Source: an uncultured Clostridia bacterium
GTDB lineage: Bacteria > Bacillota > Clostridia > Christensenellales > UBA1242
Length of the DNA stretch: 64,000 bases
Direction: 5' to 3'
Assembly: GCA_947584415.1 (NCBI GenBank)
Contig: CANPWN010000003.1
Location: forward strand, 34,391-98,390
Shown here: positions 16,659-63,229 of the stretch, piece after piece
Layout of the letters: every line of letters starts with the position of its first letter
Numbering within the stretch: the first letter of the stretch is position 1
Program-made: the position numbers and the translations under genes
Notes under the pieces: generated by a model
Databases searched by the model: none
What the model saw: the letters and a program-made list of their open reading frames with translations, nothing else
What the model was told of the DNA's origin: nothing

Positions 16659-16915
16659 ATCCTTAATTATTCAAAAATAATGAAAAAATTGCAGAAAAAT
16701 AATATATTTTTATAAAAAAATCATTAAAATTATTAAATTATGCTTTTTATCCCTTATTTTTAAAGGCAAAAAAATTGTTTGAGGCGAAGACCTTCTTTTA
16801 ATGTTATATTAAAATAAATATAATTATATATAATATTTACACATAATTTATTTTGATTTTGCAAAGAATTATGCTAGAATTATTTTGTCAAAAAATGACA
16901 GAAGAGGTAAGGTTT

Positions 16916-19900
16916 ATGAACAAGTTGAAATCAGTTTTGAGTTTTACTTTTCTAGCAGCGGCAGTCATAGGTGTTGGCTGCGGAGGTATGTTGTGTTCTG
17001 CCCCACCAAGAGCAAACATGACCGTTTTTGCAGACTATGTTGATGACACGGTCAATGAAACCGTGCTTGATGACTATTTTGTTGTTGACGGGCTAACCCA
17101 AGGCACATTTTTTCATAAAACTGCAAGTGACACTGGCTTCAGCGTCAGATTAAACACAGAGAAAGCCGAAGTCGCAAATGATGATAACGAAACGAGTCCT
17201 AATTTCAAATATTATTACTCAGTCCCTGGTGCAAGTCCAACGACATATTATTACTTCCTCGTCAACGCCGTAACCTTTTCAATTGATGGAGTGACCATCC
17301 CAGACAAAAAGGCAAGCGGAAATGACATTGGCTTTGACACTTCCAACCTTATCCTTAACTCCACCGGCAGTACTGACTTTCTTGATGCCGGCGACAATGT
17401 TACATCTCAAACAATCAATTTTAAAGTTGTTTATGAAAAAGGTGGAAAAACAAGAATATCTCAACCAGTTGCAGGTGAGAACGACTATTTGACGACCGAA
17501 AATAAATTATCACCAACACCTCAGCGAACAGTTTATCTTGGCGACACCTTCACAGACAGTGAAGGGCGCGAGCGCTCAACTGAAGGAAAACTTGAAATCA
17601 GAATAAGTTACTCTTTCGTAATTTCGGAACAAATTGCAGTGGGGAGAAACTCCGAAAAATTTGTTGGCACAGAAACTCCACTCACCCCTGCCATTATCCG
17701 AACACTTTACTTAAACGAAGACAACTATGTCACACAATTAAATGAGCCAAAACTTGAGTATGACACAAACACTTTGACAAGAACAAATGTGACAACAAGC
17801 GAGGCGGCAACACATAAATTTAATTATTTTTACAACTATCAATCAAATCAAATCCCTTGGATAAGTTATAACCCAAATTACATAAGGCTCAGCGTAACAA
17901 AAACACAAAACAACGCAACCATTTCCGACACCATTGTCTATGACCCAGATGACAAAAAGATTAACAAAGATGCAAACGGCAACGAGCATATCCCTTCTTT
18001 CTTGTATGACATTAAGGAAGAGGAAAATGGCAATTTGAAAGTTTACTTTAATGATGTTGGACAATATGGTCTTGCCATTGACTTTGTGCATATTAACACA
18101 AACGACAAAACAACCTATGTTGTTGACAGGGCAATCAAAGGGCAGTTATATCAAAATGTTTATATCTTTGGTGCTCAAGCCTTTTTCACTAACCGTGCAG
18201 AAAACAAGCAAAGTGAGTTTAAAGATGTTGAAAATTTCGCTGCAACCATATCGGCTGATATAACTTCCTATTTGAAGGACAATAAATACGCCTCACTTCT
18301 GCCAAGCGGCGCAGAAACAAACGAACATGATGCTGAAGGCTCATGCACTTGTGCAGACTGCACAATGAAAAAACTTGTTGCACAAATAAACACAGACAAA
18401 ATTAACATTGTATCAACAAATCAAACTCCGGTCAAATTCGCCTTCAACCTTAACTCTCAAAACATTTCCGTTTACTCAAAACTGGAAAATGATGATAAAG
18501 GTTGGCAGCGTTCCGCTGAAAGCGTGACAAAAACATTTAGCAACCCTGGAGAATACTTTGTTAGATTAAGTTACAGTTTTGCCCCTCACACAACTTTAGA
18601 CGGAGCGGCAAGTGATGCAACTTTTACACAATATTTTTACTTCAAAATCAACAAGCCTGTTCCAGTTATCAAAATTTATGCTGTTGACAAAAACAACACT
18701 GAAAAAGAGTTGATGTCAAAAGATTACACCAACGCCGAAAGAGTTAAAATCATCTATGAAAACTATGGCGGCAAGTTTGACAGCGAAGCAACTTTTGAAA
18801 TTTCAAAAAAGGATTTCAAAAACCCAAGTCAAAGTTTTGAAAACAGACCTTTTACTTTTAGAGTTACAACTCGCCAAGATGCAAGCGGAAACGAATATCA
18901 ATGTGGCGAATATGTGGAAGAAGGAGAAGGAACTTACACAGTTTCCACCTACTACTCTTTTGAAGGCGTTAAACAAAAAGTTCCTGTTACAAAAAGTTTT
19001 ACAATTGACAGAGAAGCAATTGACGCAATTGAACCTATAAACGCTTACACTGTGCAAACTTATGGCTTGAATAAGGAATATCAAAGCGACCCAACACCAA
19101 TTTCAGATGCCACAAACCAACCTTTCATTTTAACTTGGCAACAAACAAAACGCAGCGGCGCAACAACAAATGCCTATGTTAAATATTATCCACTTCAAAA
19201 GAACAATATCTATTCCTCTAACGGCAATCTTAGCGGGATGATACAAAGTTTCTTGGGAACATTTCAATCTCTTGCAACAGACAAATCTTTAAACTTTAGG
19301 CAAAATGCAAGTTGGGACAAATATGACAACGCCACTGCAGTGAGAAATGGGGTTATCCCAAATTACTATGTCAAATCTGACGCCGGACTTTACATCTTCC
19401 AAATTGTTGACCAAGCAGGAAACACCGCTGTCAAGATTGTTTTATTTGATGACAGCACTCCTTACTTTGCAATGTATAAAGCGGGCAGCAGCAGTGGTGA
19501 AGCCGGCGGCTACTCCATTGTAAGCACTTATTACACAACCTCAACAGACGCAACAGTTTACTGGGGTGAAAAGAAAGCAATTTTCATTGATTATGACCCA
19601 AATAGCAATGATGTTGCGGCCGACAGAAATGGTGACGAAAGCGAAAACTCCCCTGTATACCAAGCACTTATGAACTTCTTTAATGGCAAAACTCACAACT
19701 ATTCCCTGCCACAAATTGCAGATGCATACAAGGGTGATTACTACGAAGTTGAACTTGAAGATTATGCTTCATACAAAGGGCTAAGCGGAAAATATGAACC
19801 TATCAACGCATCTTCAATGGAAATTCAATCTTCCTTCAAGGTTTATTACACGGGAGATGAAAGCGTAATAAATTATTACTATTCAACCAGCGACAATGTG

Positions 19901-22900
19901 AACAACTATGTTTTGAAAGTTAAAGAGGACGGCTCAACGGAAAGAGTTGTTTCAATCAATGGCACAACCATTGAAAATGAAGGAACACTTAAGGAAGCAA
20001 AGGTTTACAAACGCTCAGTCAATGGTGAAAACACCGCTTATTACTATAGCGCTCCAATTTCCTCTGACACAAATCTTCACAAAGTTTACAGCACTGAAGT
20101 TGTGACAAAGCCTGCAAATTTTGAAAACTCCGAATTTAAGGAAGTTAACTTTGTGGATATGGAAGGCACTTATGTCTTCCTGCTCAGAGATAAGTCCAAC
20201 ACACTTGGAAGAGATTACCCTAAGGACTCAAACGGTTACAGCGAAGAGGCCTTCTTGAATCATGCGTCTGCATATCAATATGTCAAAGTGACGGGAGATG
20301 TTTCAGGGACAAAAATTTACTTCACAGACGGAGATGACACCATTGAATTGACATACGCGGCATTTTCAAATTCCGGTGTGACTGAAAATGACGAAGCAAA
20401 AAATCTGTCCTTTAGGGAAAGTTACTATGAGCCAACCTGCATACAAAAAGTGTTGTCAGTTTCATTTACGCCAACCACAACAACCTCTGCAGGAAAAACA
20501 CAAATTGACAAGGTTACACTGCAATACTTCCCTTATGAAACACAAAAGTATGCACATTTGAATGCTTGGGGAAATCCTGTTGTCGAATTCTATCAAACGC
20601 TTTCCACAGTTGAAACAGAACCTATTGTGCTTTATGATTATAAAAATGGAAGTGGTGATGCAGAATCCTCAGAAGAACTTACTTTCAGCATCAATGTTTC
20701 TTCACAAATGACCAAGGCTGGAAAATACATCCTCAAGAGAACTTATGTCACAGGCGAAGGCTATATCACCGGCAGTTTTGACTATGACCAAAGAACACTG
20801 ACCGCCCTTGTTGACAGATACAATGTTCTTTCTGAACAAGCGTCTGTTGAATATGTGGAAAACATCCGAACATATCAAAATGTTAATGGATTAACACTTC
20901 AAACCCGCGTTATTGAAAACATTTTGGAAGTTACTGTTGTGGGCGAAACGAATTTCCCAGACAACCCAACCTTTAAATTTTATGCAAAAAACGGCGAAGA
21001 AGAAACCGAACTTAAATTAAGCCAAATCAATGCAAACATTGGATACTACAATCTTGTCAGCGAAGAAGACAGCAAAAAGCCTGACATTATCCTTGACACA
21101 AGCGCAATTGTTGACTATGTTTTGAAAGTTGGCGAAGATAAAATCCAAGATTACAGCGTAACACCAAGCAAATCTTACAGGTCTTTGGAAAGCGTTGTTG
21201 GCAGTGACATCTTCGTCAATATGTATGATGGCATGTCTGAGAACGGCGGGAGCCAAGTTTCCATTACCTTCCCTAATTACAGCGGAATTTTGCCTTCTGG
21301 AGACTCTTTCTACACAGACAACAAATCAGATTGGGACCCAATTCATGATGAAACAGCAAGCAAGTTCACAACAAACAAACTTCCTGTTTCACTTTACATT
21401 CCAAGCGTTAAATACACTCTTTACAACTTAGGACAATGGGATGACGCAATTGAATATTCTTCAGTTTTAAATGAAACCCTAAATTACTATGACAAAACCT
21501 ACACAAATTCAGTAATCAATTCCTATGAACTGCGTGCTGAAATCACCGTGTTTGACAACGAAGGAAACATAATCAAATATTATTCAAATGGCTCAACTTA
21601 CAGTGGTTTCTTAAAATTCGTCGACGATAAAGGTCAAGATGTTTCTAACTTTACAACCGCCGGAGTTTACATTGTCAACATCTCGCAGGGCAACTATTCT
21701 GAGGGTGTCTCTGCAAATAGTTTCAAGAAAAACTATCAGTTCTCTTTCACCGTGCTTTCCTCCTCGCCTGAATTTAGCATCTCTGCAAATGGTGCTCAAC
21801 TCAACTCACTTCAAGACCGTTCCCAAAATGAAGTTAAGGAAATTTATTACACAAACGCAAGTGACATAAGAGTTTCTTGGAACGACACGGACAGCCCTTA
21901 CATTGCGAACATTGACAAAACTCAAATAAGACTTATCATTATGCAAGCAACATACAAAATCAGCATTGTTGATAATAAAGTTTCCGTTTTCAATGATACA
22001 AATGATGAACTTCCGGATTTTGAAGTCGGGATGTCCTATTCAAAAACGGGCAACCAAAACAGGCTGATTATCAACCTGTCCGCGCTAGACGCTTACTACA
22101 ACGGCAGCGAAGTTGACATCACCATGCAATTTGAAAATCACAACTCTGACTATTACTCGACAAAAACAAAGGCCATTTACATTGACCTTGCCGCTGACGC
22201 AACTTCCCTCAACCCACTCATTGACAAACTTCCTTCATCTTCAGCCTTAACACTTGACCGCAGCACTTTGAGAAGATACAAGGATGCAAGCGGCGGCGAC
22301 ATCACAACGGGCAACCCGAATAACGACAACTTTGTTGCTTCTTACAACATCTCTCAAGATGCAACCAGCCCACTTTATAGATACAGTTACATGGTTGATT
22401 CAAATTTCTTCATTACTTTGCGCGACAAGGTTATGGCAAATGCAAACATCACTTCGCCACAGGACTATGTTCAAGCAGGCTGCGGCGCTTGGGAAGCATA
22501 TTACAGAATTGTTGACAACCCTTACAACACCACCTCTGAAACAAGTGACGAAGAAACATCCTATGAAAACTTTATTCCATCAACCTTTAACAACATCACA
22601 GATTCAATTCCTTCAACTGCGGGCGACTATGTTGAAGTGGTTGAACGTGACCGTGCTGGAAACATGACAATTTACTTGGTTTACCTTTATGACCAAGACC
22701 AAACTGACGAAGGGCAAGAAGGCTCTTATCAGGGCATTGAAATCAAAGATGAAAGCACCTTTAAACTTGCAAGTGATGCCCAAATTGCCACAGACAAACT
22801 CAGCCTTTACGCATCAACCAGCACAACCATTTCTCGTTTCAACTTCTTGGGTGATGAGTGGATAAGATTTGCTGTTAATGATGAAGAATACTTGCTCTCA

Positions 22901-25882
22901 CCAATTATTCCTCAAGGCAATGTTTTCCATCTGCCAAACACAACAACTTCAATAAGTTTGAATTCTGTTCTTTCTTCCTTTAGTTCATCAACAGTGCCAA
23001 TTTCCATCAGAGTTCTTAACAGAGCCACCGGCGTTTGGCACAATTTCACCATCACGCTTTTAAATGAAGTTGCGCTTGTGACAACGCTTTCAAACTCTGA
23101 CTCCGAATACATTTCAATCTCATATTCCAATGCGGTGTATCCAGTCAATGTTTCAATCTTCCAGCAAACAATACAAAATGAACAAGCCGTTCTCACTGCA
23201 AACCTATCAAACAACCCTAACAAACTTGAAAACCTGACAAATGCAGATTACACATATCTGTCAGGCTGGGCAAATAAAGACGGCATAACCGTTTCTGTGG
23301 ACGCAGCGACAAACCGCATAGTGTTCAGATTTAACCGCAACCCTTCAGTTGGTGTTAAAGTTAGATATGAAATTGAAGATAACTTTGGCAATATCTTAAA
23401 GCCAGCGCACATCTTTGGTATTGTGCAGCCAAACGAAATCACGAGCAGCGGAAATATTTATCAAACTGTTGTCAATGACTTCACAACTGGCAACCAAAAC
23501 GAAATTTATTATATTGCAACCAAAAATTTGGTTTACAGTTTCAACAACCTCATACACAATGTTACTGTTGAAAAATGGGATAACATCCGCGGAAGATGGT
23601 CATCAGACGCTTCAGTTTTACTTCCTAATGATTACATTTCACGAACAACCGACAATATCACAACTTACACCTTTGCCCCTCAAAATGACACTTTTAATCA
23701 AAAGTTTAGGTTGATTGTCAATGAATTGGACGGAACAGAACAAACAAATGTTAAAACCGTTTACTTGCAACTATATCAAGTTCTGCCACATCTTTTGGAT
23801 AAACTTGAAAACGCAAATGACTATCTTTCAACTTTCACCATGACGGACTCCTCAGGCATCAACATAACCAAAGAAGTTTTGGTGGACAGAAACTCCGAAA
23901 ATGTTTTCATCAATGGCAAAACTTACTCCGTTTCTTTGGCCGGAATAACCTTTGCAAAGAGCATTAGATTGACTTTCACTGACCCAGCGCAATTTGCCTT
24001 CCCTTACAGCATTTACATATATAAAGAAGATGGCTCGCTTGGTGAAGACTTTGTGCCAATCAACTCTGGAAGTAGATTTGCAGAAAGCGGCGTTTACTAC
24101 ATCTTGTTCAAATATGACGAACTGTTGTTGTATGAGGACAGAGTTTACAAAGTTGAAATTCTTGACTCCAATAATGAATACTACCGCGTTACAAACAATG
24201 GACATGTTGTAAACCGCGCCGGAGCATATTACAATGATGGCTCAGTTGATAACCCTGAATATTACATTGTCAATGTTAAATATCCAGACGAAAGCCGTGC
24301 AATTGAAATTGTTCCAAACACCTATCAAAAAATTGTTTCTTACTTCATCTCAGAAAAACCAGAAGAACAAAGTCGTGAAGTGGTAACTTTGCAGTATGTT
24401 GTTTCAAATGTGGGAAGAAATGGTGACCAGCCTCTTGAACAGGGACTTCATAAATTCTTCAAAAAAGTCTTTATCACCTTTGTTCCTCCAACACAATCTC
24501 CTGTTGGCACAATGTATTTGACCTACAACTTCTCTGACATGCCTATCCCTGATTCAATAAATGATAAAAGTTCTTACACAGCAGTGCCACCAGACCCAGG
24601 AATTGAATCAATCAAACTTGTTTACTCCAAAAACAGAGGAATTGACAGCAATTTGATTAATCTTTCCGTGCTTAAAGATGGCGTGCCTTACACCCCAACA
24701 ATCAAGCAAATGGCAACCGGTGACGGCGAAGAAGAACTTATGTATGCTGAATTTTCAATCTCCGGCACTTACACAATTTCATTTACAGATGTTGCGGGCA
24801 ACAGGCAAATGTTTGCAACTGGCTTAACTCAACAATCTTACGAATTTAATCTTGTGCTGTTAAAAGATGTTTCGTTCTTCATGACCTACACAGATGTTGA
24901 CGGAAATGAACAAAACACTGACCCAATTCAAAAAGGCGTGTTCAATAGCGAAGTGACACTTTCAGTTATCAAAAAGTTTAATTCGGTTTATTACACTCAA
25001 GCATCTGTCGGAGAAAAAGACTCCCTCATCCATGTTACCAGAAACGGCGTGCCTTACACTAATTATGAATACTCCTCAAACGAAACACTTTCTTCCTTCA
25101 AGTTCTCAAAACCGGGATATTACTCCGTTTACTTCTCCGCAACCAGCCTGGCAACCGGACTTGAACTGAGAGAAACCGTTTACACCTTCGCAATTGTCGA
25201 GCCTGAAGAGTCAAGATATGCGTTTGAATTCTCACCTTATCAGAGTTATTATGTTCTCTCAATCATAAAAGGCAACAGCGGTGACATCACAAGAGATAAT
25301 GACGGCAATTTGGTTGCAGACCTTCAAAATACCTTCCAAACCGCAGTTGGCAGTGATAACAAGCGCTATTTGAAAAACTTTGTGACTTCAGTTTCAGATG
25401 AAGGTTTGCTTGGCAGCGGAAGATATATTGTGACAATTTCAACAAACAAAAACTTAAACCGTGACGATTACTCCAAAGTCACAACCTTCTCCTTTGCATA
25501 TTGGATAAATTCAGAGTCAGTGCCAATCAGCGTTTCAATCAACGAAGGCACTTCAACCAACAAAAACATCTCTGTTTCCTTTAATGCAGAAAGAGTGTTC
25601 ACTTCGGTCGGCGAGTGCGACATCTATGTTGGAACAAAAATATATCACATAAACAGTGAAACCATTGCCGAACTTGGCACTATCACCGAAACACTTTCAA
25701 CAACAGGTGTTCACTACATCACCGTTATGTCAATGAGCGGCAGCGTTCTTTACAGATACAAAGTTGAAAAAACTGAACCTCTCAATGGCTGGGCAATTGC
25801 AGCAATTGTCATAGGCGGCATAGTGCTGATTGCAGTGATAATCATCATTGTTAAACTGAGAAAACGAATCAAGGTTAAATAA
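16916..25882 (+). CDS. giant membrane-anchored secreted repeat protein (about 2988 aa)
   Basis: Signal peptide MNKLKSVLSFTFLAAAVIGVGCGGMLCSA; many Ig-like strand motifs (GLYIFQIVDQAGNTAVKI, GTYTISFTDVAGNRQMF, GDYVEVVERDRAGNMTIYLV); C-terminal TM GWAIAAIVIGGIVLIAVIIIIV then KLRKRIKVK. Confidence 0.85.
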   Translation: MNKLKSVLSFTFLAAAVIGVGCGGMLCSAPPRANMTVFADYVDDTVNETVLDDYFVVDGLTQGTFFHKTASDTGFSVRLNTEKAEVANDDNETSPNFKYYYSVPGASPTTYYYFLVNAVTFSIDGVTIPDKKASGNDIGFDTSNLILNSTGSTDFLDAGDNVTSQTINFKVVYEKGGKTRISQPVAGENDYLTTENKLSPTPQRTVYLGDTFTDSEGRERSTEGKLEIRISYSFVISEQIAVGRNSEKFVGTETPLTPAIIRTLYLNEDNYVTQLNEPKLEYDTNTLTRTNVTTSEAATHKFNYFYNYQSNQIPWISYNPNYIRLSVTKTQNNATISDTIVYDPDDKKINKDANGNEHIPSFLYDIKEEENGNLKVYFNDVGQYGLAIDFVHINTNDKTTYVVDRAIKGQLYQNVYIFGAQAFFTNRAENKQSEFKDVENFAATISADITSYLKDNKYASLLPSGAETNEHDAEGSCTCADCTMKKLVAQINTDKINIVSTNQTPVKFAFNLNSQNISVYSKLENDDKGWQRSAESVTKTFSNPGEYFVRLSYSFAPHTTLDGAASDATFTQYFYFKINKPVPVIKIYAVDKNNTEKELMSKDYTNAERVKIIYENYGGKFDSEATFEISKKDFKNPSQSFENRPFTFRVTTRQDASGNEYQCGEYVEEGEGTYTVSTYYSFEGVKQKVPVTKSFTIDREAIDAIEPINAYTVQTYGLNKEYQSDPTPISDATNQPFILTWQQTKRSGATTNAYVKYYPLQKNNIYSSNGNLSGMIQSFLGTFQSLATDKSLNFRQNASWDKYDNATAVRNGVIPNYYVKSDAGLYIFQIVDQAGNTAVKIVLFDDSTPYFAMYKAGSSSGEAGGYSIVSTYYTTSTDATVYWGEKKAIFIDYDPNSNDVAADRNGDESENSPVYQALMNFFNGKTHNYSLPQIADAYKGDYYEVELEDYASYKGLSGKYEPINASSMEIQSSFKVYYTGDESVINYYYSTSDNVNNYVLKVKEDGSTERVVSINGTTIENEGTLKEAKVYKRSVNGENTAYYYSAPISSDTNLHKVYSTEVVTKPANFENSEFKEVNFVDMEGTYVFLLRDKSNTLGRDYPKDSNGYSEEAFLNHASAYQYVKVTGDVSGTKIYFTDGDDTIELTYAAFSNSGVTENDEAKNLSFRESYYEPTCIQKVLSVSFTPTTTTSAGKTQIDKVTLQYFPYETQKYAHLNAWGNPVVEFYQTLSTVETEPIVLYDYKNGSGDAESSEELTFSINVSSQMTKAGKYILKRTYVTGEGYITGSFDYDQRTLTALVDRYNVLSEQASVEYVENIRTYQNVNGLTLQTRVIENILEVTVVGETNFPDNPTFKFYAKNGEEETELKLSQINANIGYYNLVSEEDSKKPDIILDTSAIVDYVLKVGEDKIQDYSVTPSKSYRSLESVVGSDIFVNMYDGMSENGGSQVSITFPNYSGILPSGDSFYTDNKSDWDPIHDETASKFTTNKLPVSLYIPSVKYTLYNLGQWDDAIEYSSVLNETLNYYDKTYTNSVINSYELRAEITVFDNEGNIIKYYSNGSTYSGFLKFVDDKGQDVSNFTTAGVYIVNISQGNYSEGVSANSFKKNYQFSFTVLSSSPEFSISANGAQLNSLQDRSQNEVKEIYYTNASDIRVSWNDTDSPYIANIDKTQIRLIIMQATYKISIVDNKVSVFNDTNDELPDFEVGMSYSKTGNQNRLIINLSALDAYYNGSEVDITMQFENHNSDYYSTKTKAIYIDLAADATSLNPLIDKLPSSSALTLDRSTLRRYKDASGGDITTGNPNNDNFVASYNISQDATSPLYRYSYMVDSNFFITLRDKVMANANITSPQDYVQAGCGAWEAYYRIVDNPYNTTSETSDEETSYENFIPSTFNNITDSIPSTAGDYVEVVERDRAGNMTIYLVYLYDQDQTDEGQEGSYQGIEIKDESTFKLASDAQIATDKLSLYASTSTTISRFNFLGDEWIRFAVNDEEYLLSPIIPQGNVFHLPNTTTSISLNSVLSSFSSSTVPISIRVLNRATGVWHNFTITLLNEVALVTTLSNSDSEYISISYSNAVYPVNVSIFQQTIQNEQAVLTANLSNNPNKLENLTNADYTYLSGWANKDGITVSVDAATNRIVFRFNRNPSVGVKVRYEIEDNFGNILKPAHIFGIVQPNEITSSGNIYQTVVNDFTTGNQNEIYYIATKNLVYSFNNLIHNVTVEKWDNIRGRWSSDASVLLPNDYISRTTDNITTYTFAPQNDTFNQKFRLIVNELDGTEQTNVKTVYLQLYQVLPHLLDKLENANDYLSTFTMTDSSGINITKEVLVDRNSENVFINGKTYSVSLAGITFAKSIRLTFTDPAQFAFPYSIYIYKEDGSLGEDFVPINSGSRFAESGVYYILFKYDELLLYEDRVYKVEILDSNNEYYRVTNNGHVVNRAGAYYNDGSVDNPEYYIVNVKYPDESRAIEIVPNTYQKIVSYFISEKPEEQSREVVTLQYVVSNVGRNGDQPLEQGLHKFFKKVFITFVPPTQSPVGTMYLTYNFSDMPIPDSINDKSSYTAVPPDPGIESIKLVYSKNRGIDSNLINLSVLKDGVPYTPTIKQMATGDGEEELMYAEFSISGTYTISFTDVAGNRQMFATGLTQQSYEFNLVLLKDVSFFMTYTDVDGNEQNTDPIQKGVFNSEVTLSVIKKFNSVYYTQASVGEKDSLIHVTRNGVPYTNYEYSSNETLSSFKFSKPGYYSVYFSATSLATGLELRETVYTFAIVEPEESRYAFEFSPYQSYYVLSIIKGNSGDITRDNDGNLVADLQNTFQTAVGSDNKRYLKNFVTSVSDEGLLGSGRYIVTISTNKNLNRDDYSKVTTFSFAYWINSESVPISVSINEGTSTNKNISVSFNAERVFTSVGECDIYVGTKIYHINSETIAELGTITETLSTTGVHYITVMSMSGSVLYRYKVEKTEPLNGWAIAAIVIGGIVLIAVIIIIVKLRKRIKVK

Positions 25883-53519: not shown

Positions 53520-56240
53520 TCAATCATTTTTGCCGCAGCATTGTTTGTATTTCTTTCCGCTGCCGCATGGACAAAGTTCATTTCTGCCGATCTTTCTTTC
53601 AGTGTTGACAACCGTTTTTTGAATTGTTGGCTTCTTGGCTTCTTCTTTCTTTTCTTCCGGCGTTGGCTCTTTGCGAGCAATAGGAGTGAAGGTTGGCCTG
53701 TTCATCTTTGGCTTTGGCTCTTCCATTTCAAAGTGGCTGACAAGCAGCAGTTGGCAGGTCGTCTGCCTGATTTTTGCAATCATTTTTTCAAAGAGTTCAT
53801 AGCCGTCTTTCTTGTAAGCCAACACTGGGTCTTGGTTGCCAAACCCACGCGAGAAAATTTCGTTTTTCATGATTTGCATGTCGTCAATATGGTTCATCCA
53901 ATTTGCATCAACAACTCTCAAAAGCACATATCTTTCAACATCCTCAAAGTTGACGCCAAAACTTTGTGCCTCTTCCATGCGCTCGTTATAACGCTTTTCA
54001 ATAACCTTCAAAAGTTTTTCAGCCACATCATTGACATCACAGTCCTCAACAAACTTTTCGTTAACTGTGTTTGAGCCTTTTTCAGTCCAGCCCTTTTCCA
54101 AATCAGCGTTAATTTCGCTCAAATCCCACTCAAAATAAGGCTTGTCCTCATCAAGATGATTTCTGACAATTTCGTTAATAATCTCAGGGAACATGCCCAT
54201 GATTTGGTCGTGGATAGGCTCGCCATCCAAAACTTTATTCCTTTGCTCATAAATGATTGTGCGCTGTGCGTTCATGACATCGTCAAACTGCAGCACAGTT
54301 TTTCTGGTTGAAAAGTTTTGAATTTCAATCTTCTTTTGAGCGGTTGAAATTTGTTTTGACAGAATTTTAAGTTGAATTGGCGTTGACTCGTCAATTCTAA
54401 ATGCCATGGCAATGCGTTTCATCTTGTCGCCGCCAAAACGCTTTAAAAGGTCGTCCTCCAAACTTAAGAAAAAGACACTTGAGCCTGGGTCGCCTTGACG
54501 AGCGGCACGACCACGGAGCTGATTGTCAATTCGTCTTGACTCATGGCGCTCTGTTCCAACAATATGCAAGCCGCCAAGAGCAACCACCTCTTCCTTTTCG
54601 GCGTCTGTTTGAGTCTTAAATTCTTTGTAAAGAGCGTTATATCTCTCCCTCGCCGCATTGAGTTTTTCATCATCAACAACATTGAACGCAGTGGCGTAAG
54701 AAATTTCCTCATCTGTGAATTTTTCGTCCTGCATTTTCTTTTTTGCAAGAAATTCTGGGTTTCCCCCCAACAAAATATCCGTTCCACGCCCCGCCATGTT
54801 TGTGGCAATTGTGACAGCACCCTTTCTGCCCGCTTGAGCGACAATGGCACTTTCTTGCTCATGGTTTTTGGCGTTCAAAACAACATGCTTAACTTTTTCG
54901 CGTTTGAGGGCTTTGGACAAATCTTCAGATTTTTCAATTGTCACTGTGCCGACCAAAACAGGCTGTCCAATTTCATTGCAACGCTTGATTTCTTCAACAA
55001 TGGCTTTGATTTTGCCAGCATAGGTCGTGTAAACAATGTCCGCTTCATCACGGCGGCGGTTTGGAAGATTTGGTGGAATTGTGACAACATCCAAACTGTA
55101 AATTGTCCTAAATTCGCCCTCCTCCGTTTTGGCAGTTCCCGTCATGCCTGAAAGTTTGTTGTAAAGGCGGAAATAGTTTTGAAAAGTGATGGTTGCAAGA
55201 GTCTTGTTTTCGTCCTTAATCTCAACATTTTCTTTGGCTTCAATTGCTTGATGAAGGCCATCATTAAATCTTCTGCCCGGCATAAGACGACCAGTGAATT
55301 CGTCAACAATGACAACTTCGCCGTCTTTAACAATATAGTTTTCATCACGGAACATGATAAAGTTTGCCTTCAAAGCGTTGTTAATATAGTGGTTAAGTTC
55401 CAGATTTTCAATGTCTGACAGGCTTTCAACACCAAAAAATCTTTCAGCTTTGGTGATTCCGCTTTCGGTGAGGTTGATTGCCTTGGTCTTTGGGTCAATT
55501 TCAATGTCCTTATCCTTCTTGATAGTCTTTGCAAATCTCTGAGCCTGAATATAGTCATCACTCGACTTGCCGCCCTTTCCAGAGATGATAAGTGGGGTTC
55601 TTGCTTCGTCAATCAAAATTGAGTCAACTTCGTCGACTATGGCAAAGTTCTGCCCACGCTGAACGCGTTGCTTTGGTGAAACCGCCATGTTGTCACGAAG
55701 ATAGTCAAAGCCAAGTTCGTTATTTGTGCAGTAAGTGATGTCAGCATTATACGCCTGGCGTTTTAAGTCTTCTTTCATATTTGAAACAATAACACCAACG
55801 CTCAGCCCCAAAAATTTGTAAACTTTGCCCATCCACTCGGCGTCACGCTTTGCCAAATATTCATTGACAGTGACAACATGCACGCCCTTTCCTGCAAGCG
55901 CATTTAAGTAAGCCGGCAGTGTCGCCACCAAAGTTTTACCTTCACCGGTTGCCATTTCAGCAATTCTGCCCTGATGAAGAGCAATGCCCCCCAAAATTTG
56001 AACATAAAAATGCTTCATGTTAAGCACACGAAATGCTCCTTCACGCACAACAGCATAAGCGTCAGGCAAAATGTCGTTCAAAGTTTCACCATCCGCGAGT
56101 CTCTTTTTTAACACCTCGGTCTGCGACTGAAGTTCACTGTCGGACATTGCTGCATACTTGTCCTCAAGGGCAATGACTTTGTTTGCAATCTTCTTTAATT
56201 TTCTCACTTGTGAGTTGTTTTCACTTCCAAAAAGTCCCAT
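53520..56240 (-). CDS. secA: preprotein translocase ATPase SecA
   Basis: EMATGEGKTLVATLPAYLNAL, DEVDSILIDEARTPLIIS, C-terminal CPCGSGKKYKQCCG. Confidence 0.97.
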   Translation of the reverse strand: MGLFGSENNSQVRKLKKIANKVIALEDKYAAMSDSELQSQTEVLKKRLADGETLNDILPDAYAVVREGAFRVLNMKHFYVQILGGIALHQGRIAEMATGEGKTLVATLPAYLNALAGKGVHVVTVNEYLAKRDAEWMGKVYKFLGLSVGVIVSNMKEDLKRQAYNADITYCTNNELGFDYLRDNMAVSPKQRVQRGQNFAIVDEVDSILIDEARTPLIISGKGGKSSDDYIQAQRFAKTIKKDKDIEIDPKTKAINLTESGITKAERFFGVESLSDIENLELNHYINNALKANFIMFRDENYIVKDGEVVIVDEFTGRLMPGRRFNDGLHQAIEAKENVEIKDENKTLATITFQNYFRLYNKLSGMTGTAKTEEGEFRTIYSLDVVTIPPNLPNRRRDEADIVYTTYAGKIKAIVEEIKRCNEIGQPVLVGTVTIEKSEDLSKALKREKVKHVVLNAKNHEQESAIVAQAGRKGAVTIATNMAGRGTDILLGGNPEFLAKKKMQDEKFTDEEISYATAFNVVDDEKLNAARERYNALYKEFKTQTDAEKEEVVALGGLHIVGTERHESRRIDNQLRGRAARQGDPGSSVFFLSLEDDLLKRFGGDKMKRIAMAFRIDESTPIQLKILSKQISTAQKKIEIQNFSTRKTVLQFDDVMNAQRTIIYEQRNKVLDGEPIHDQIMGMFPEIINEIVRNHLDEDKPYFEWDLSEINADLEKGWTEKGSNTVNEKFVEDCDVNDVAEKLLKVIEKRYNERMEEAQSFGVNFEDVERYVLLRVVDANWMNHIDDMQIMKNEIFSRGFGNQDPVLAYKKDGYELFEKMIAKIRQTTCQLLLVSHFEMEEPKPKMNRPTFTPIARKEPTPEEKKEEAKKPTIQKTVVNTERKIGRNELCPCGSGKKYKQCCGKND

Positions 56241-56342
56241 ATTTTCTCCTAACACCTATTTAGTTTACTAAATTTGCAAATTTAGTCAAGCAGATTAAGG
56301 CGCGGAAAGTGTCTAAACTTCAATAATTCCACTTAAATGGGT

Positions 56343-56371: not shown

Positions 56372-56422
56372 GTGAATAAAGTATGGGCACTTAACGCCCT
56401 TTTAAACAAAAGGAGAAATTTA

Positions 56423-59400
56423 ATGCCAACTAAGAAAAGTGTTAAGAATAATGATAACCGAGTTTTCCAAGCCCCTTATATGATATATCAAGCAACTGCC
56501 AACCAACAAGATGGCGGTAGAATAACTCAAAATATAATCATGGAGCCGACCCCAACAAAAGACAGTGCAAATGCTCCTTATTTTTCTGTTGATTTACCTC
56601 CTGTGAAAGGTGAAGAAAAGCCTAAATCTGTTATGACAGTGCATAAGGACAAGAAAGGCAAACTCACTGCAACTTTGGTATTTGACCGGCACGGCAATCC
56701 ACCATCAATAACAGAGGAGATGGCTGAGGTCTTAAGAAAGGCCAGTGAAAGGATTGTTACAAACCAAAACACAGGAAGAACGGAATTTGAGATTACTGCA
56801 GATGAATGCTCTTTTAATTGTTCTGACGCCAATGGTAATGATTTTGCATTTTCTTGCACAATAGGCGGACAAAAAGTTAAGATTGAAGCGCGTGCAGGCT
56901 CTTTAACCATTAAAGCTGATGGAGAAGATGCCGCAACAATGGAACTAAATTCTCCTGAAGGAACAGCGTCAAAAGTAGGGTTCGGCTTTACTTTATCACA
57001 AGAGTTGTTGAAAGATTTGCTTCAAAGCAATCCTTCGACAAAGCTAACATATAATTCCGGCAAAAGTAAGCCTACTCCGATAAATAAATTACCTGCCCCA
57101 ATTTTTCGAGCACTAGGCGCTTTTAATGCAATTGATTGCACTGACGCTAGACAGACTGCACCAAGCAGCGCAACCATTGGGGATTATGAATTTTTTGGAC
57201 TTGATGCCGTTGATGGCATGGATTCAAGTGGCAGCAACGAAAACAACTCTGTTCTGTTTGTAAAAACAGGCGGACAAACTTATGTGTATGATGGGTCAGG
57301 ATATCATGAAATTAACCCTGGTGGAGCTGACTTCTTCATAGGCAGAACTCCATCTACTCCCCCTAACGATCTTAACTTTTTCATATCATATAAAATTGGT
57401 ACGAGGAGAGTTGACTTGCCAATAAGGCTCAAAACAAAAGATGGTAAAGCTGATTTGTATGACCCAAACACTGAATGTTTTATCGCGCTTCTCAAATTCT
57501 TAAGACCAACAGAAGAGGATGCGTTTGATGATTGGGATGGAAATCCTAAAAAAATTGGTGGCATATCAATTAAAAATGATGCAAATAGGCCAAACACAAC
57601 ATCAAATTCGGAAAAAATATCACACCGCCCTAACCCAGGGTCAAGCAAAAATTTAAAAACCGTTGGCGTTGCTCTCGCTGTTGAATCGCCTATTATAGAA
57701 GAACAAGAAGAGCCGGAAGAACAATATATCGGTCCAAGTTCAGAATCGTTTGCTGGCGAGAGGCTGGAAAATAACATAAACATCAATGTTCACTTATTAA
57801 ATCCAAATGGAACACCAGTTCAAAAAGAGGGCAGAAATGAAGTTTATAACACCACATTTTCTTTTGTTCCCGAAGAAAATGATGCAGACGCAGGATTGTT
57901 TACCATTTTAACTGCTGATAAACAACCTCTTGCAGAGGCTAGCGCTAAGGTTAAAAAATCCAATTCTGGCAATGTAACAACCACTGTAACGCTCTATGAA
58001 GACCAACTTCCTGCTGACATTATCAGCATTTTAAACAAGGCAGGTTATGTTGCTGAAAATGGCAAATTTACTCTCTCTCAAGCACAAGTAAGGCTCACAA
58101 CAACTGGCACGCAAATTGAAAGTAACACAGGTGACAATAAAGTTCAACTTAATATAGGAACAAAAGGCATAAATGCAGCATATGGTGGCATTCCTGCAAC
58201 CGAAACTGAATTTACGCCAACAGAAACAGCGTCCAGCCAATTGCCAGAAGATAAATGTTATGCAACACAAGTTAAACTTGCCGCTTTAAGTCACCCTACA
58301 ACTCAATTTGTATTTAACAAAGGCAAACTATTAACAACATTTTCTGCAGACACAAAGGCTTCTGTCCTTCCCGTGGAAGTTTTGCATGCCATTGCAACTG
58401 CAGGATGTGACGGCGAACCCCCTAAACCTATTGTGAAACAAGTTGGGGAAAATTTAACATTTTTTGCTGGTAAAGCGCCGGGTTATACAAATGCGAATGG
58501 CGACAAAGTCGCTTCCAACGTTGTTATGGTTTATGACAAATCTGAGAAAGCTTTTAGGCAGATAATAATCAATGGCAAGCTTGTAAAATTCAAAGCAGAA
58601 AATGTGAAAGTGTCCTATGAGGGCGACGGTAAAACCACAGCAAACTTAAATCATTCCATCATCACCATTGTGGATGAGAAAGGCAAATCACACACCATTC
58701 CTGTTGAAACCCCTGTTAAGGTTGACCCAAATACGGGCAAAATAACTTATGAGAACAGTGAAGGTTTTCAATTCTTAGAAAAATTTTACGTATATGTTAA
58801 CAATCCTTCTACACTGCAAGAAGGAATTGACGGGCTCGTTTCCGAAAATAACCTATCCGTTGGAAACCCTTTGAAGATGGAAAGAGGTGATGCCGGAAAA
58901 GAAGGAAAAGTTAAAAATCCAAACGCAACACTTTATGTTGATGGAGTTTTCTTTGCTGGGCCTGCAACATGCAAAAAAGCCACAGTGATTGACACAAAAG
59001 ACCCTGCGATTGATGACACCGTTACACGAGAGATTAAACCTGTTTATTCTGTTGAAAATTTTGAAGATTCAATTAAGATGTCTGTTACAACACAAACTCC
59101 AAAAGGTGATGCTGTTGTTGATAAAGATGGCAACCCTATGGAATTTCAAACTGAAACAAAAATTTTGTCAAACTCAAGCGACCCTGATTTGCTTTTTAGC
59201 GTTGCAGCAAATGGCCGTGGCAATCCAATCATAAAAGTTACGCAACAGAATGGTGTTAACGGCGGTGGGCCTGTTAATGTAGTTTTAAATGTTTCAGAGC
59301 TTCCTAAAGCAACTCAAAACCAACTCAAAACTTATTTTGATGCTTATCTTAAAACAGGCGATGATAAATTAACTATTTCTAATTCTCAAATTGCCTTTAC

Positions 59401-62128
59401 TGAAAGCGGCATGTCAATTGTTGCTGAAGACCCGAACGGCAACGGAAAAATTACACTTGAAGTCAACCCTCGGGGCGTCATTGTTACAACCCACAAAAGA
59501 AATGCTGAAGACCAGCCTTTTAAAACTGTTCAAACTGTTGCACTTCCTGGCGGTCCTGAAACACCTGTTGGCGCTGGAAAAAGCACAGAAAGTTTTAACA
59601 TATCCATTTACGAGCAGGCTTTCAATAACTCTAACTGCACATTTCAATATGTAAACCCTGAAACAAACAAACTTGAAGAGTTCAAAGGTCCTACGTATTC
59701 TGAAAAAACTAAAAAACTTTTAAAGAACGGAACCGCTTTCACACACTTGCCTCCAGTTGTTGCTTATGGTTTGGCTGCTCAAGCCGTCAATGAAAGAGGT
59801 CAAGCAGCAAGCCCTTACAGATGGCGCGGCATTGAGTTTATGGCTGCAAGATTGCCTGGTTATGCAACTTCTGATGGGCATGGTGTGGCAAGCAATGTTA
59901 TGCTTGTTCGAGACGGAAATGACAACAACAAACGCTATCTTTTAAATGATGGCAAGTTTGTTGAACTCGATGGTGATGCGGAATATTTTTATGATTCTGA
60001 AGATACAACACGCATGTATGCTCAGGTAAGAGATAAGGAAGGGCACACCTATCAAATTCTGTTACAACAAAAACCAGCTGCTGAAAACGGCAAATTGGAC
60101 ACAGGATTTGTTGGAGCTAAAAATTTTGACACAATTGCAAGCATGCTCCATAACGCTTCACCTAAAGCCCCAACTCCTCCAACACTTCAATCTGGCATAA
60201 TTGAAAAAAAAGATGACGCTCTAAAAATTGGCACTGCCGAATTTAAACCTGGCACTTTTGACCCTGCACTCGTTCCTAAAAATAAACAACCTGCCCCTCC
60301 TAAAGTTGAAAATGTTGTCGACTATGGTGCAGCACCTGTTACTGGCAAAAAGCGACATGAGGCTGAAATAGAAGAAGAAAAAGATAAAAGAGATGCCGCT
60401 TCAATCAAGCCGTTAATGAAAACAAATCCGGATGCTGTGAAAGCGGCTCAACTTGCTGGCGGTGCAGCGGCAGCCATTGGAGCAGTTCTGTTCTTATTAA
60501 GTTTATTTGTCCCTGGTGCAGGCCTTGTATTGTCAACATTGGGCTTGAGCTTGGTGACTGCTGGTGGGCTAGTTGGTTTTGGCACTCCTATGGTGGCAGG
60601 CCTTCTTGATTCCGTTGATGTCGGAGGACCTTTTGGAAAGATTGCAAAAGCACGACGCGCTGTTTCAAAGCGTGAAAAAGCGGCTCAAAAATATCTGGCG
60701 GCAGAAAATTCAATTGCACATTACAAAGAACTTGCTGATGAATTCTACGCAAAAGGAAGAAGCAAAGCAGCTGAAAAGTGCTTGAAAAAAGCAAGAAAAC
60801 TTGAAAGAAACCAAAACGAGGCTTTAGCACTAGGCGGTGGAAAATTATTAACCACAATCACAAACCAAGAGCGTAAAGCCGCTGGTCAAAAAGCTCGAGA
60901 AGAATATAAAAAAGACCATCCAGAAGCAACAGAGGCTGAACTTACCCAAGCAGAAGAAAACGGTAAGAAAGGTTTTATGCTTGAGTTTACTGATAAAGAC
61001 GCAAACGGCAGGTGGAATATTAGCCCAGAGACCTATACTCTTGCCCGTGGAATAATCGCATCACTTGATGACAAAAACACAATAAAGTTCCTCATGTCTC
61101 TCACCCCTACTGAACGCGAAATAATTGGTCAAGCCATTGGCGACATTCGTGACGCGGCCTGCGCACTTATGATGACTGAAGACGGTAAACTTAAAGACTT
61201 TGATTTTGAACAAGATGGATATAAATTAAGCAGTAAGCAGATAAGGGAAAGATTGGGAGATGTGGCGACCGACACTATCCTTGAGCGCCGTTACAAACAC
61301 AGAGGCCATGATAATAAAACTGGTCATTATGAAGATGGCCCAGACAGCGTTGAACTCTTAATGGATAATATTTTTGGAGCGAGAAAGGGTTACAGCAGAA
61401 AACAGAAGTTTGGCGGAGATAAGGAAAAAGACAGGGGCAAACCATTTGACTGGGCTAAAGATGCATGGCAAACCAGCGACACTGACGAAAAAAATGACGA
61501 AAAAGTGAAAAGCCTTACCAAAAATATTGAGGCTCTCATTGGCAATCCTGAAGATGGTGAATCTAATTTCTTTGAACAAATGGATCATTTGTATTATGCG
61601 AAAGAGGACGTTGAAGAGCTTATGGCTCAACTAGACAGCTCTGGTGTAGTCACAATATTGAAAGAAAACGGTGAAGTTGTCACAATGACAAAAGAAAAGC
61701 TTGAGGCAGCATTAGCACAAATCGGTTTTGAACAAGCAGATATTATAAAACTTTTGACAACCGATAATGAAGCTGTAAGAAAAGCACAATGGAACGAGAT
61801 GCGAGACAAACATGACCAACGTGTGATTGACGCCCTCAACAATCCTAATTCTTTAAGAGGTCGAATTGCAAGACATTTTGACATGCAACCTAGAGATTCT
61901 GCTACGGCAGATAGGTATCGCGCTGAAAAGCAAGCGGCTTCATTCGGAAAAGGAGAAGAAAATCCAGATAAAACAATGTCGCAGGAAGCATTTGAAGAAA
62001 TAGCGGAAATTCATAATGACAAAAAGGGGAAACCTCCTATTAAGAATAGAGGAAACGCCGCCGATGCAAACATTGCAGACCCAAATCCACAGTCATCAGC
62101 GACTCCTCCCGATCTAAGCGTGCGTTAA
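56423..62128 (+). CDS. giant repeat protein (about 1901 aa) with one central hydrophobic hairpin and no signal peptide
   Basis: Three divergent about 430-aa repeats; AAAIGAVLFLLSLFVPGAGLVLSTLGLSLVTAGGLVGFG; agg-agaa RBS. Confidence 0.75.
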   Translation: MPTKKSVKNNDNRVFQAPYMIYQATANQQDGGRITQNIIMEPTPTKDSANAPYFSVDLPPVKGEEKPKSVMTVHKDKKGKLTATLVFDRHGNPPSITEEMAEVLRKASERIVTNQNTGRTEFEITADECSFNCSDANGNDFAFSCTIGGQKVKIEARAGSLTIKADGEDAATMELNSPEGTASKVGFGFTLSQELLKDLLQSNPSTKLTYNSGKSKPTPINKLPAPIFRALGAFNAIDCTDARQTAPSSATIGDYEFFGLDAVDGMDSSGSNENNSVLFVKTGGQTYVYDGSGYHEINPGGADFFIGRTPSTPPNDLNFFISYKIGTRRVDLPIRLKTKDGKADLYDPNTECFIALLKFLRPTEEDAFDDWDGNPKKIGGISIKNDANRPNTTSNSEKISHRPNPGSSKNLKTVGVALAVESPIIEEQEEPEEQYIGPSSESFAGERLENNININVHLLNPNGTPVQKEGRNEVYNTTFSFVPEENDADAGLFTILTADKQPLAEASAKVKKSNSGNVTTTVTLYEDQLPADIISILNKAGYVAENGKFTLSQAQVRLTTTGTQIESNTGDNKVQLNIGTKGINAAYGGIPATETEFTPTETASSQLPEDKCYATQVKLAALSHPTTQFVFNKGKLLTTFSADTKASVLPVEVLHAIATAGCDGEPPKPIVKQVGENLTFFAGKAPGYTNANGDKVASNVVMVYDKSEKAFRQIIINGKLVKFKAENVKVSYEGDGKTTANLNHSIITIVDEKGKSHTIPVETPVKVDPNTGKITYENSEGFQFLEKFYVYVNNPSTLQEGIDGLVSENNLSVGNPLKMERGDAGKEGKVKNPNATLYVDGVFFAGPATCKKATVIDTKDPAIDDTVTREIKPVYSVENFEDSIKMSVTTQTPKGDAVVDKDGNPMEFQTETKILSNSSDPDLLFSVAANGRGNPIIKVTQQNGVNGGGPVNVVLNVSELPKATQNQLKTYFDAYLKTGDDKLTISNSQIAFTESGMSIVAEDPNGNGKITLEVNPRGVIVTTHKRNAEDQPFKTVQTVALPGGPETPVGAGKSTESFNISIYEQAFNNSNCTFQYVNPETNKLEEFKGPTYSEKTKKLLKNGTAFTHLPPVVAYGLAAQAVNERGQAASPYRWRGIEFMAARLPGYATSDGHGVASNVMLVRDGNDNNKRYLLNDGKFVELDGDAEYFYDSEDTTRMYAQVRDKEGHTYQILLQQKPAAENGKLDTGFVGAKNFDTIASMLHNASPKAPTPPTLQSGIIEKKDDALKIGTAEFKPGTFDPALVPKNKQPAPPKVENVVDYGAAPVTGKKRHEAEIEEEKDKRDAASIKPLMKTNPDAVKAAQLAGGAAAAIGAVLFLLSLFVPGAGLVLSTLGLSLVTAGGLVGFGTPMVAGLLDSVDVGGPFGKIAKARRAVSKREKAAQKYLAAENSIAHYKELADEFYAKGRSKAAEKCLKKARKLERNQNEALALGGGKLLTTITNQERKAAGQKAREEYKKDHPEATEAELTQAEENGKKGFMLEFTDKDANGRWNISPETYTLARGIIASLDDKNTIKFLMSLTPTEREIIGQAIGDIRDAACALMMTEDGKLKDFDFEQDGYKLSSKQIRERLGDVATDTILERRYKHRGHDNKTGHYEDGPDSVELLMDNIFGARKGYSRKQKFGGDKEKDRGKPFDWAKDAWQTSDTDEKNDEKVKSLTKNIEALIGNPEDGESNFFEQMDHLYYAKEDVEELMAQLDSSGVVTILKENGEVVTMTKEKLEAALAQIGFEQADIIKLLTTDNEAVRKAQWNEMRDKHDQRVIDALNNPNSLRGRIARHFDMQPRDSATADRYRAEKQAASFGKGEENPDKTMSQEAFEEIAEIHNDKKGKPPIKNRGNAADANIADPNPQSSATPPDLSVR

Positions 62129-62143: not shown

Positions 62144-63229
62144 ATGAAAATTGGAGTAGTTGGCCTTCCAAATGTCGGAAAAAGCACACTTTTTAATGCA
62201 ATCACGGAGGCTGGTGCTGAAAGTGCCAACTACCCTTTTTGCACTATAGAACCAAACATTGGCGTGGTGGATGTTCCTGACTCAAGACTTGATGTGCTTG
62301 GGCAAATGTATCACACCCAAAAAATCACTCCGGCAAGCATTGAGTTTATGGACATTGCCGGTCTTGTTGCAGGTGCAAGCCACGGCGAAGGACTTGGCAA
62401 CAAGTTTTTAAGTCATATCCGTGAAGTTGACGCCATTGTGCATGTTGTCAGATGTTTTGAAAATGAAAAAATTATCCATGTGAGCGGCAGTGTTGACCCA
62501 ATACGCGACATTGAAATCATCAATCTTGAACTTGTGCTTGCCGACCTTGAACAAGTGACAAAAAAATATGAAAAAGACGCTAAACTTATGCGTGTTGGTG
62601 AAAAAAGCCTGCTCGACAGTGTTGCCCTTCTCGAACGCGTTAAAAAATGTTTGGAGGACGAAAAACCTGTTCGCACTCTAAAATTGACTGAGGATGAAAA
62701 GGAAATTCTTAAAAGTTTTTCACTTTTGACAGCAAAACCTGTCATTTATGTTGCAAATGTTGGCGAAAATGAACTTGCCGGCAATGAAATGTCCAAGAAA
62801 GTTGAAGAGTTTGCACACAAAGAAGGCTCCGGCGTAATCACGCTTTGCGCGAGGCTGGAAGAAGAAATTGTCGGGCTTGAAAAAGACGAAAGACAAATGT
62901 TCAAAGAGGAACTTGGAATTACTGAAAGCGGACTTGAAAAACTTGTTAAAGAAAGTTATGACCTGCTCGGTCTTATGAGTTATCTCACCGCTGGCGAAAA
63001 AGAAGTGCGCGCTTGGACAATCAAAAAAGGCACAAAAGCACCACAAGCAGCCGGAAAAATTCACACGGATTTTGAAAAGGGCTTTATCAAAGCCGAAGTC
63101 GTATCTTATGCCGACCTCGTTGATGCAGGTAACTTTTTAAAAGCAAAAGAAAAAGGCAAAGTGCGAATTGAGGGCAAAGACTATGTCATGCAAGATGGTG
63201 ATGTTGTCCTATTCCGCTTTAATGTGTGA
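62144..63229 (+). CDS. ychF: redox-regulated GTPase/ATPase YchF
   Basis: MKIGVVGLPNVGKSTLFNAITEAGAESANYPFCTIEPNIGVV. Confidence 0.97.
   Translation: MKIGVVGLPNVGKSTLFNAITEAGAESANYPFCTIEPNIGVVDVPDSRLDVLGQMYHTQKITPASIEFMDIAGLVAGASHGEGLGNKFLSHIREVDAIVHVVRCFENEKIIHVSGSVDPIRDIEIINLELVLADLEQVTKKYEKDAKLMRVGEKSLLDSVALLERVKKCLEDEKPVRTLKLTEDEKEILKSFSLLTAKPVIYVANVGENELAGNEMSKKVEEFAHKEGSGVITLCARLEEEIVGLEKDERQMFKEELGITESGLEKLVKESYDLLGLMSYLTAGEKEVRAWTIKKGTKAPQAAGKIHTDFEKGFIKAEVVSYADLVDAGNFLKAKEKGKVRIEGKDYVMQDGDVVLFRFNV

Follow-up and report, generated by a model that had tools for sequence, protein, structure and literature searches.

The window analysed here, a 64,000-nucleotide stretch of genomic DNA, encodes between secA and ychF a 1901-aa protein that, on comparative sequence evidence, belongs to a genus-core family of membrane-hairpin proteins with exchanging modules. 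This family is new by every search run, and its locus, judged from the same comparisons, is one at which both allele replacement and intragenic recombination occur. The placement of the gene between secA and ychF, proposed in a first-pass annotation of the window, was recovered in full, with secA divergent (Table 1). Codon adaptation of the hairpin-protein gene (0.616, rank 14 of the 44 window ORFs) is level with that of secA and ychF, and there is thus no sign of exceptional abundance. The window also holds a 3009-aa ORF (16853-25879, +), apparently a second giant protein and exported, with a signal-peptide-like stretch in its start region (MNKLKSVLSFTFLA) and the sixth highest codon adaptation index (0.648) among the 44 tested ORFs.

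Table 1. Coordinates of the hairpin-protein gene, its parts and its neighbours in the window
Feature	Position	Strand	Basis
secA, divergent neighbour	53520..56255	-	conserved synteny
Shine-Dalgarno AAGGAG, for ATG 56423	56410..56415	+	sequence
Hairpin protein, 1901 aa (coding 56423-62125, stop 62126-62128)	56423..62128, stop included	+	ORF; syntenic relatives in 99 loci including the window
Repeat unit 1, ~aa 1-440	56423..57742	+	profile match aa 114-360
Repeat unit 2, ~aa 441-865, approximate boundaries	57743..59017	+	profile match aa 615-826
Repeat unit 3 and linker, ~aa 866-1330	59018..60412	+	profile match aa 1127-1578
Membrane hairpin, aa 1341-1395, Pro-Gly (FVPGAG) near middle	60443..60607	+	uncharged hydrophobic stretch
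Charged helical tail, aa 1396-1901, unstructured C-terminal end (...PDLSVR)	60608..62125	+	
ychF, downstream neighbour	62144..63229	+	conserved synteny

Similarity searches miss this core family almost entirely: BLAST over 60 related genomes returned a single relative, 822 aa long and also preceding ychF, and a protein search of genome contigs with the window protein returned nothing. We relied on synteny, locating ychF in 107 of the 112 genomes of the UBA1242-type genus (genome sizes of about 0.7-1.5 Mb) and reading the sequence upstream of it. This yielded 99 usable loci, the window among them; a contig end interrupts nine, which leaves 90 complete proteins. A long ORF lies directly upstream of ychF in 99/99 of these loci, although in one of them a short opposite-strand ORF was called in between, and wherever the contig of a further locus extends as far as secA (85 loci), secA is divergent. 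The complete proteins span a threefold length range (741-2461 aa, median 1544). No such gene was found upstream of ychF in 20 other genera of the same family, nor beside secA in the 18 of these genera whose secA region was examined, three of whose sequences end just upstream of secA, so that the protein is lineage-specific, as first proposed, in the sense that the locus is occupied throughout the genus and empty at this place in other genera. The family itself was identified as UBA1242 because Ca. Caccopulliclostridium, placed there by its authors (PMC8035907), is among the compared genera.

Several other ORFs were noted in the course of this survey. In some other genera a hairpin profile gave weak matches elsewhere in the genome (best E 8e-6), and long single-hairpin ORFs occur there in unrelated places (L237 1-2109, L239 91-2328 and L240 706-2328), one of which ends in DDGRGI, as do several family members; judging from sequence, these are possible distant, family-wide relatives. 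Another genus carries a 1978-aa ORF with an N-terminal hydrophobic segment (L230 1757-7690, -), which is divergent to secA and separated from it by one 775-aa gene. Within the UBA1242-type genus, 17 genomes of one clade have a second ORF of 570-850 aa between secA and the hairpin protein (e.g., L016 8901-10937). This second ORF matches no family, has no transmembrane segment in the eight copies checked, often begins with MGxF, a possibly amphipathic N-terminus, and is hypervariable (26-67% identity in pairs with flanks at 82-98%).

The hairpin protein diverges far more than its surroundings. Across species, the flanking genes are 70-99% identical and the hairpin protein typically 20-45%; for the window protein, mean identity to its relatives is 22.5%, as against 72% for SecA and 77% for YchF. 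In the close pairs tested, most other nearby genes are >90% identical, with some exceptions. The most extreme pair, L146 and L150, encodes SecA and YchF proteins that are 98.5% and 98.9% identical, next to hairpin proteins that are 36% identical and 1350 and 2034 aa long. Synonymous divergence in this pair is higher in the hairpin-protein gene (dS 1.51) than in either secA (0.59) or ychF (0.21), and therefore the allele itself is foreign or ancient. One clear case of intragenic recombination was also found: L152 and L157 share long blocks with pS 0.00-0.06, though their flanks have dS 0.27-0.61, while their first 75 codons look unrelated (pS 0.76), and the first 342 bases of L152 match L168 at 91%, better than the flanks do (84-85%), which shows exchange of an intragenic cassette. 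Both marks of a hypervariable locus, divergence far above the flanks and intragenic recombination (the latter in one case), are thus present. Pairwise dN/dS is 0.23-0.61 in the hairpin-protein gene versus 0.02-0.06 in the flanking genes, values compatible with relaxed constraint and also with diversifying selection at some sites. In most close pairs the segment covering the hairpin is among the better conserved ones.

The modular organization of the N-terminal part was first described as three divergent repeats. These are too divergent for pairwise BLAST, and self-BLAST accordingly detected internal repeats neither in the window protein nor in any family member; pairwise identity between the three units of the window protein is just 15-25%. 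However, a profile built from seven single-unit relatives, with the window protein left out, matches all three units at 35.2, 16.9 (unit 2, the weakest) and 70.3 bits, whereas the maximum is 8.2 bits among 500 locally shuffled copies of the window protein and 5.7 bits among 884 unrelated ORFs. Since all three scores exceed the control maxima, the units are related, and on this profile evidence we take the repeats to be real but old. The third match extends across the linker, the hairpin and the proximal tail, which indicates that a single-unit relative is the counterpart of unit 3 together with the C-terminal half. Copy number varies within the family: the window protein has three units and most near relatives have a single one, and other modules occur elsewhere.

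The hydrophobic hairpin originally placed near residue 1360 is the sole uncharged stretch of the window protein, with a mean hydropathy of 1.7. Exactly one such stretch is present in each of the 90 complete members (32-55 aa, median 40.5), with a proline in its central half in 81 of them, most commonly in the contexts IP, VP, PG and PF; the remaining nine mostly have TG or GG at the centre. A two-span helical hairpin requires such a length and a central turn-former. The 15-aa flanks carry mean charges of +1.3 and +1.2 across the 90 complete members, and only 61/90 are non-negative on both sides, a distribution consistent with both sides being cytosolic on average but not member by member. Two AlphaFold models built from a five-row input (mean pLDDT 48.8 and 39.6) were used for secondary structure only; at this low confidence they give a beta-rich unit, an unstructured linker and then helices after the hairpin, in agreement with the charged helical tail described initially.

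The first-pass annotation had further considered the protein to be either a large intracellular or a non-classically exported structural protein. The first option fits several observations. As described there, no signal peptide is apparent, the N-terminus of the window protein having no hydrophobic segment; among relatives, an N-terminal hydrophobic segment was seen in two only, and that of L021 probably stems from an over-long mechanical start call. LPXTG-type anchors are absent from the inspected C-termini. The two-span hairpin and one informative relative, L158 (1150-6240, -), also point inside the cell: residues 23-313 of the latter, in its N-terminal part, form an aldo/keto reductase-like domain (Pfam E 3e-38 in an alignment scan, PHROG E 7e-49) that looks intact, with the catalytic tetrad D, Y, K and H seen in the sequence. 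Aldo/keto reductases need cytosolic NADPH, which suggests that the N-terminal part is cytosolic. On the other side stands the low cysteine content of the family (0.47% in the N part and 0.29% in the C part, compared to 1.24% in ORFs lacking transmembrane segments and 0.69% in a signal-peptide-like ORF set that is small and impure), which resembles exported or low-complexity proteins and argues somewhat against a cytosolic location, although it is confounded by composition. The second option, non-classical export, found no backing, as no T7SS EssC-type ATPase and no T2SS/T4P ATPase passed the cut-off in the 13 genomes searched within the genus, leaving no visible export route; sub-cut-off EssC matches in these genomes span only 190 residues of the profile and are probably the FtsK/SpoIIIE ATPase part. 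Separately, a GR-containing motif occurs in the last 10 residues of 24 of the 99 family proteins (1.1 expected; maximum of 5 in 500 controls), and is possibly a short binding or processing signal.

Annotation tools likewise left the protein without a recognisable family, as had been anticipated: the window protein has no significant match in Pfam, NCBIfam, PHROGs (best 0.17) or PDB sequences, and searches of Pfam, NCBIfam, PHROGs and PADLOC with members of the family yielded no shared family, weak one-member matches being discarded. Foldseek with the low-confidence model of one relative returned nothing below E 0.001. No Pfam match to the SPFH domain was found in the window protein or 29 relatives, and no toxin Pfam domain in 29 members.

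Our leading, if tentative, explanation is that these proteins are membrane-tethered recognition platforms on the cytosolic face, hairpin-anchored, modular, and diversified by a changing partner. One two-span hairpin would anchor the protein with both large parts facing the cytosol, the C-terminal charged helices would oligomerise, and the N-terminal modules would provide an interaction surface that diversifies through meeting a changing partner, which may be a phage component, a competitor’s product or a partner-cell factor. Published work on UBA1242 bacteria proposes that they rely on partner cells and that their genomes are rich in genes for hypothetical membrane proteins (PMC12306168); recognition of a partner, of kin or of a phage is therefore plausible, albeit unproven. 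We regard as doubtful the more far-reaching idea that modules are swapped between species and set compatibility with a partner cell, kin cell or phage, in a recognition system undescribed so far. The platform explanation is weakened by pairwise dN/dS values below 1, as relaxed constraint can explain the rate. These same values also suit a membrane-tethered brush or scaffold, in which only the hairpin, length, charge and helicity would matter and a weakly constrained sequence would drift fast and tolerate recombinants under no partner-driven selection. Such a protein could have a highly charged, helical tail, a hairpin segment among the better conserved ones in most close pairs, and a length that differs threefold between members, all of which are seen here. 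However, the whole-allele replacement between species indicated by the L146/L150 dS and the cassette swapping among L152, L157 and L168 both exceed drift, and retention in 90/90 suggests an important function; we thus consider a brush or scaffold possible but rather improbable.

The diversification pattern of the gene, together with the low cysteine content and the proposed partner dependence and many hypothetical membrane proteins of UBA1242 (PMC12306168), could alternatively reflect a protein that faces a partner or competitor, exits the producing cell through some unrecognised pathway and inserts its hairpin into a target membrane, like delivered recognition or effector proteins. This seems unlikely to us given the missing signal peptide, the lack of a T7SS or T2SS/T4P ATPase over cut-off in the 13 genomes, and the absence of any toxin, defence or phage profile common to members; moreover, there is no separate small immunity-like gene, as ychF follows directly, and the gene occupies one chromosomal site in every examined species. 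That the gene is phage-derived, tape-measure-like or a known defence gene is highly improbable and already for the most part refuted by its retention across the genus between secA and ychF, which are housekeeping rather than phage neighbours. The hydrophobic segment and long helices do resemble those of tape-measure proteins, and one member matches Pfam TMP_3 at E 0.001, but this match is weak and isolated among 29 members, and no PHROG or PADLOC family is shared.

Bacteria of the family UBA1242 have reduced genomes, occur commonly in animal guts, have not been cultured and are proposed to rely on partner cells (PMC12306168). The locus of a large gene that every examined species retains at one site, yet that is exchanged and rearranged from species to species, marks the place where selection may be strongest in this genus, and near-identical neighbours carrying almost unrelated versions of it suggest a previously unrecognised site of biological conflict or of partner recognition. 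The locus, retrieved by synteny at every usable position where BLAST saw one relative, offers a defined starting point for finding out what these bacteria meet or protect themselves from.

Among known systems, stomatin, caveolin and bacterial SPFH proteins are proline-kinked membrane-hairpin proteins which, like the family described here, have one hydrophobic hairpin with a central proline and both large parts expected in the cytosol. What sets the family apart is that its members share no SPFH or other Pfam domain, that the hairpin has sufficient length for two full spans, and that the sequence is extremely variable. Mycoplasma terminal-organelle proteins are fast-evolving cytoskeletal scaffolds, similarly large, helical, poorly conserved, cytosolic, membrane-associated and encoded in small genomes; the hairpin family differs in having no detected sequence relation to them and in its mosaic recombination at one locus. 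A wall-less, mycoplasma-like cell was itself ruled out, as the genome of the window encodes three Mur ligases, and a cell wall is therefore probable in this lineage. TraA, a cell-surface receptor, and the T6SS-exported IdsD of Proteus, a kin or partner recognition protein with a variable region, offer a further parallel. TraA of Myxococcus likewise is a recognition protein with a variable region (PMC5562445). Both resemble the hairpin family in a polymorphic region diversified between strains next to conserved neighbours, but the window protein lacks a signal peptide, and no export machinery to match was found for it. Although there is no sign that the hairpin protein is surface-exposed, its locus resembles hypervariable mosaic antigen loci in that alleles are replaced and cassettes swapped at one fixed position.
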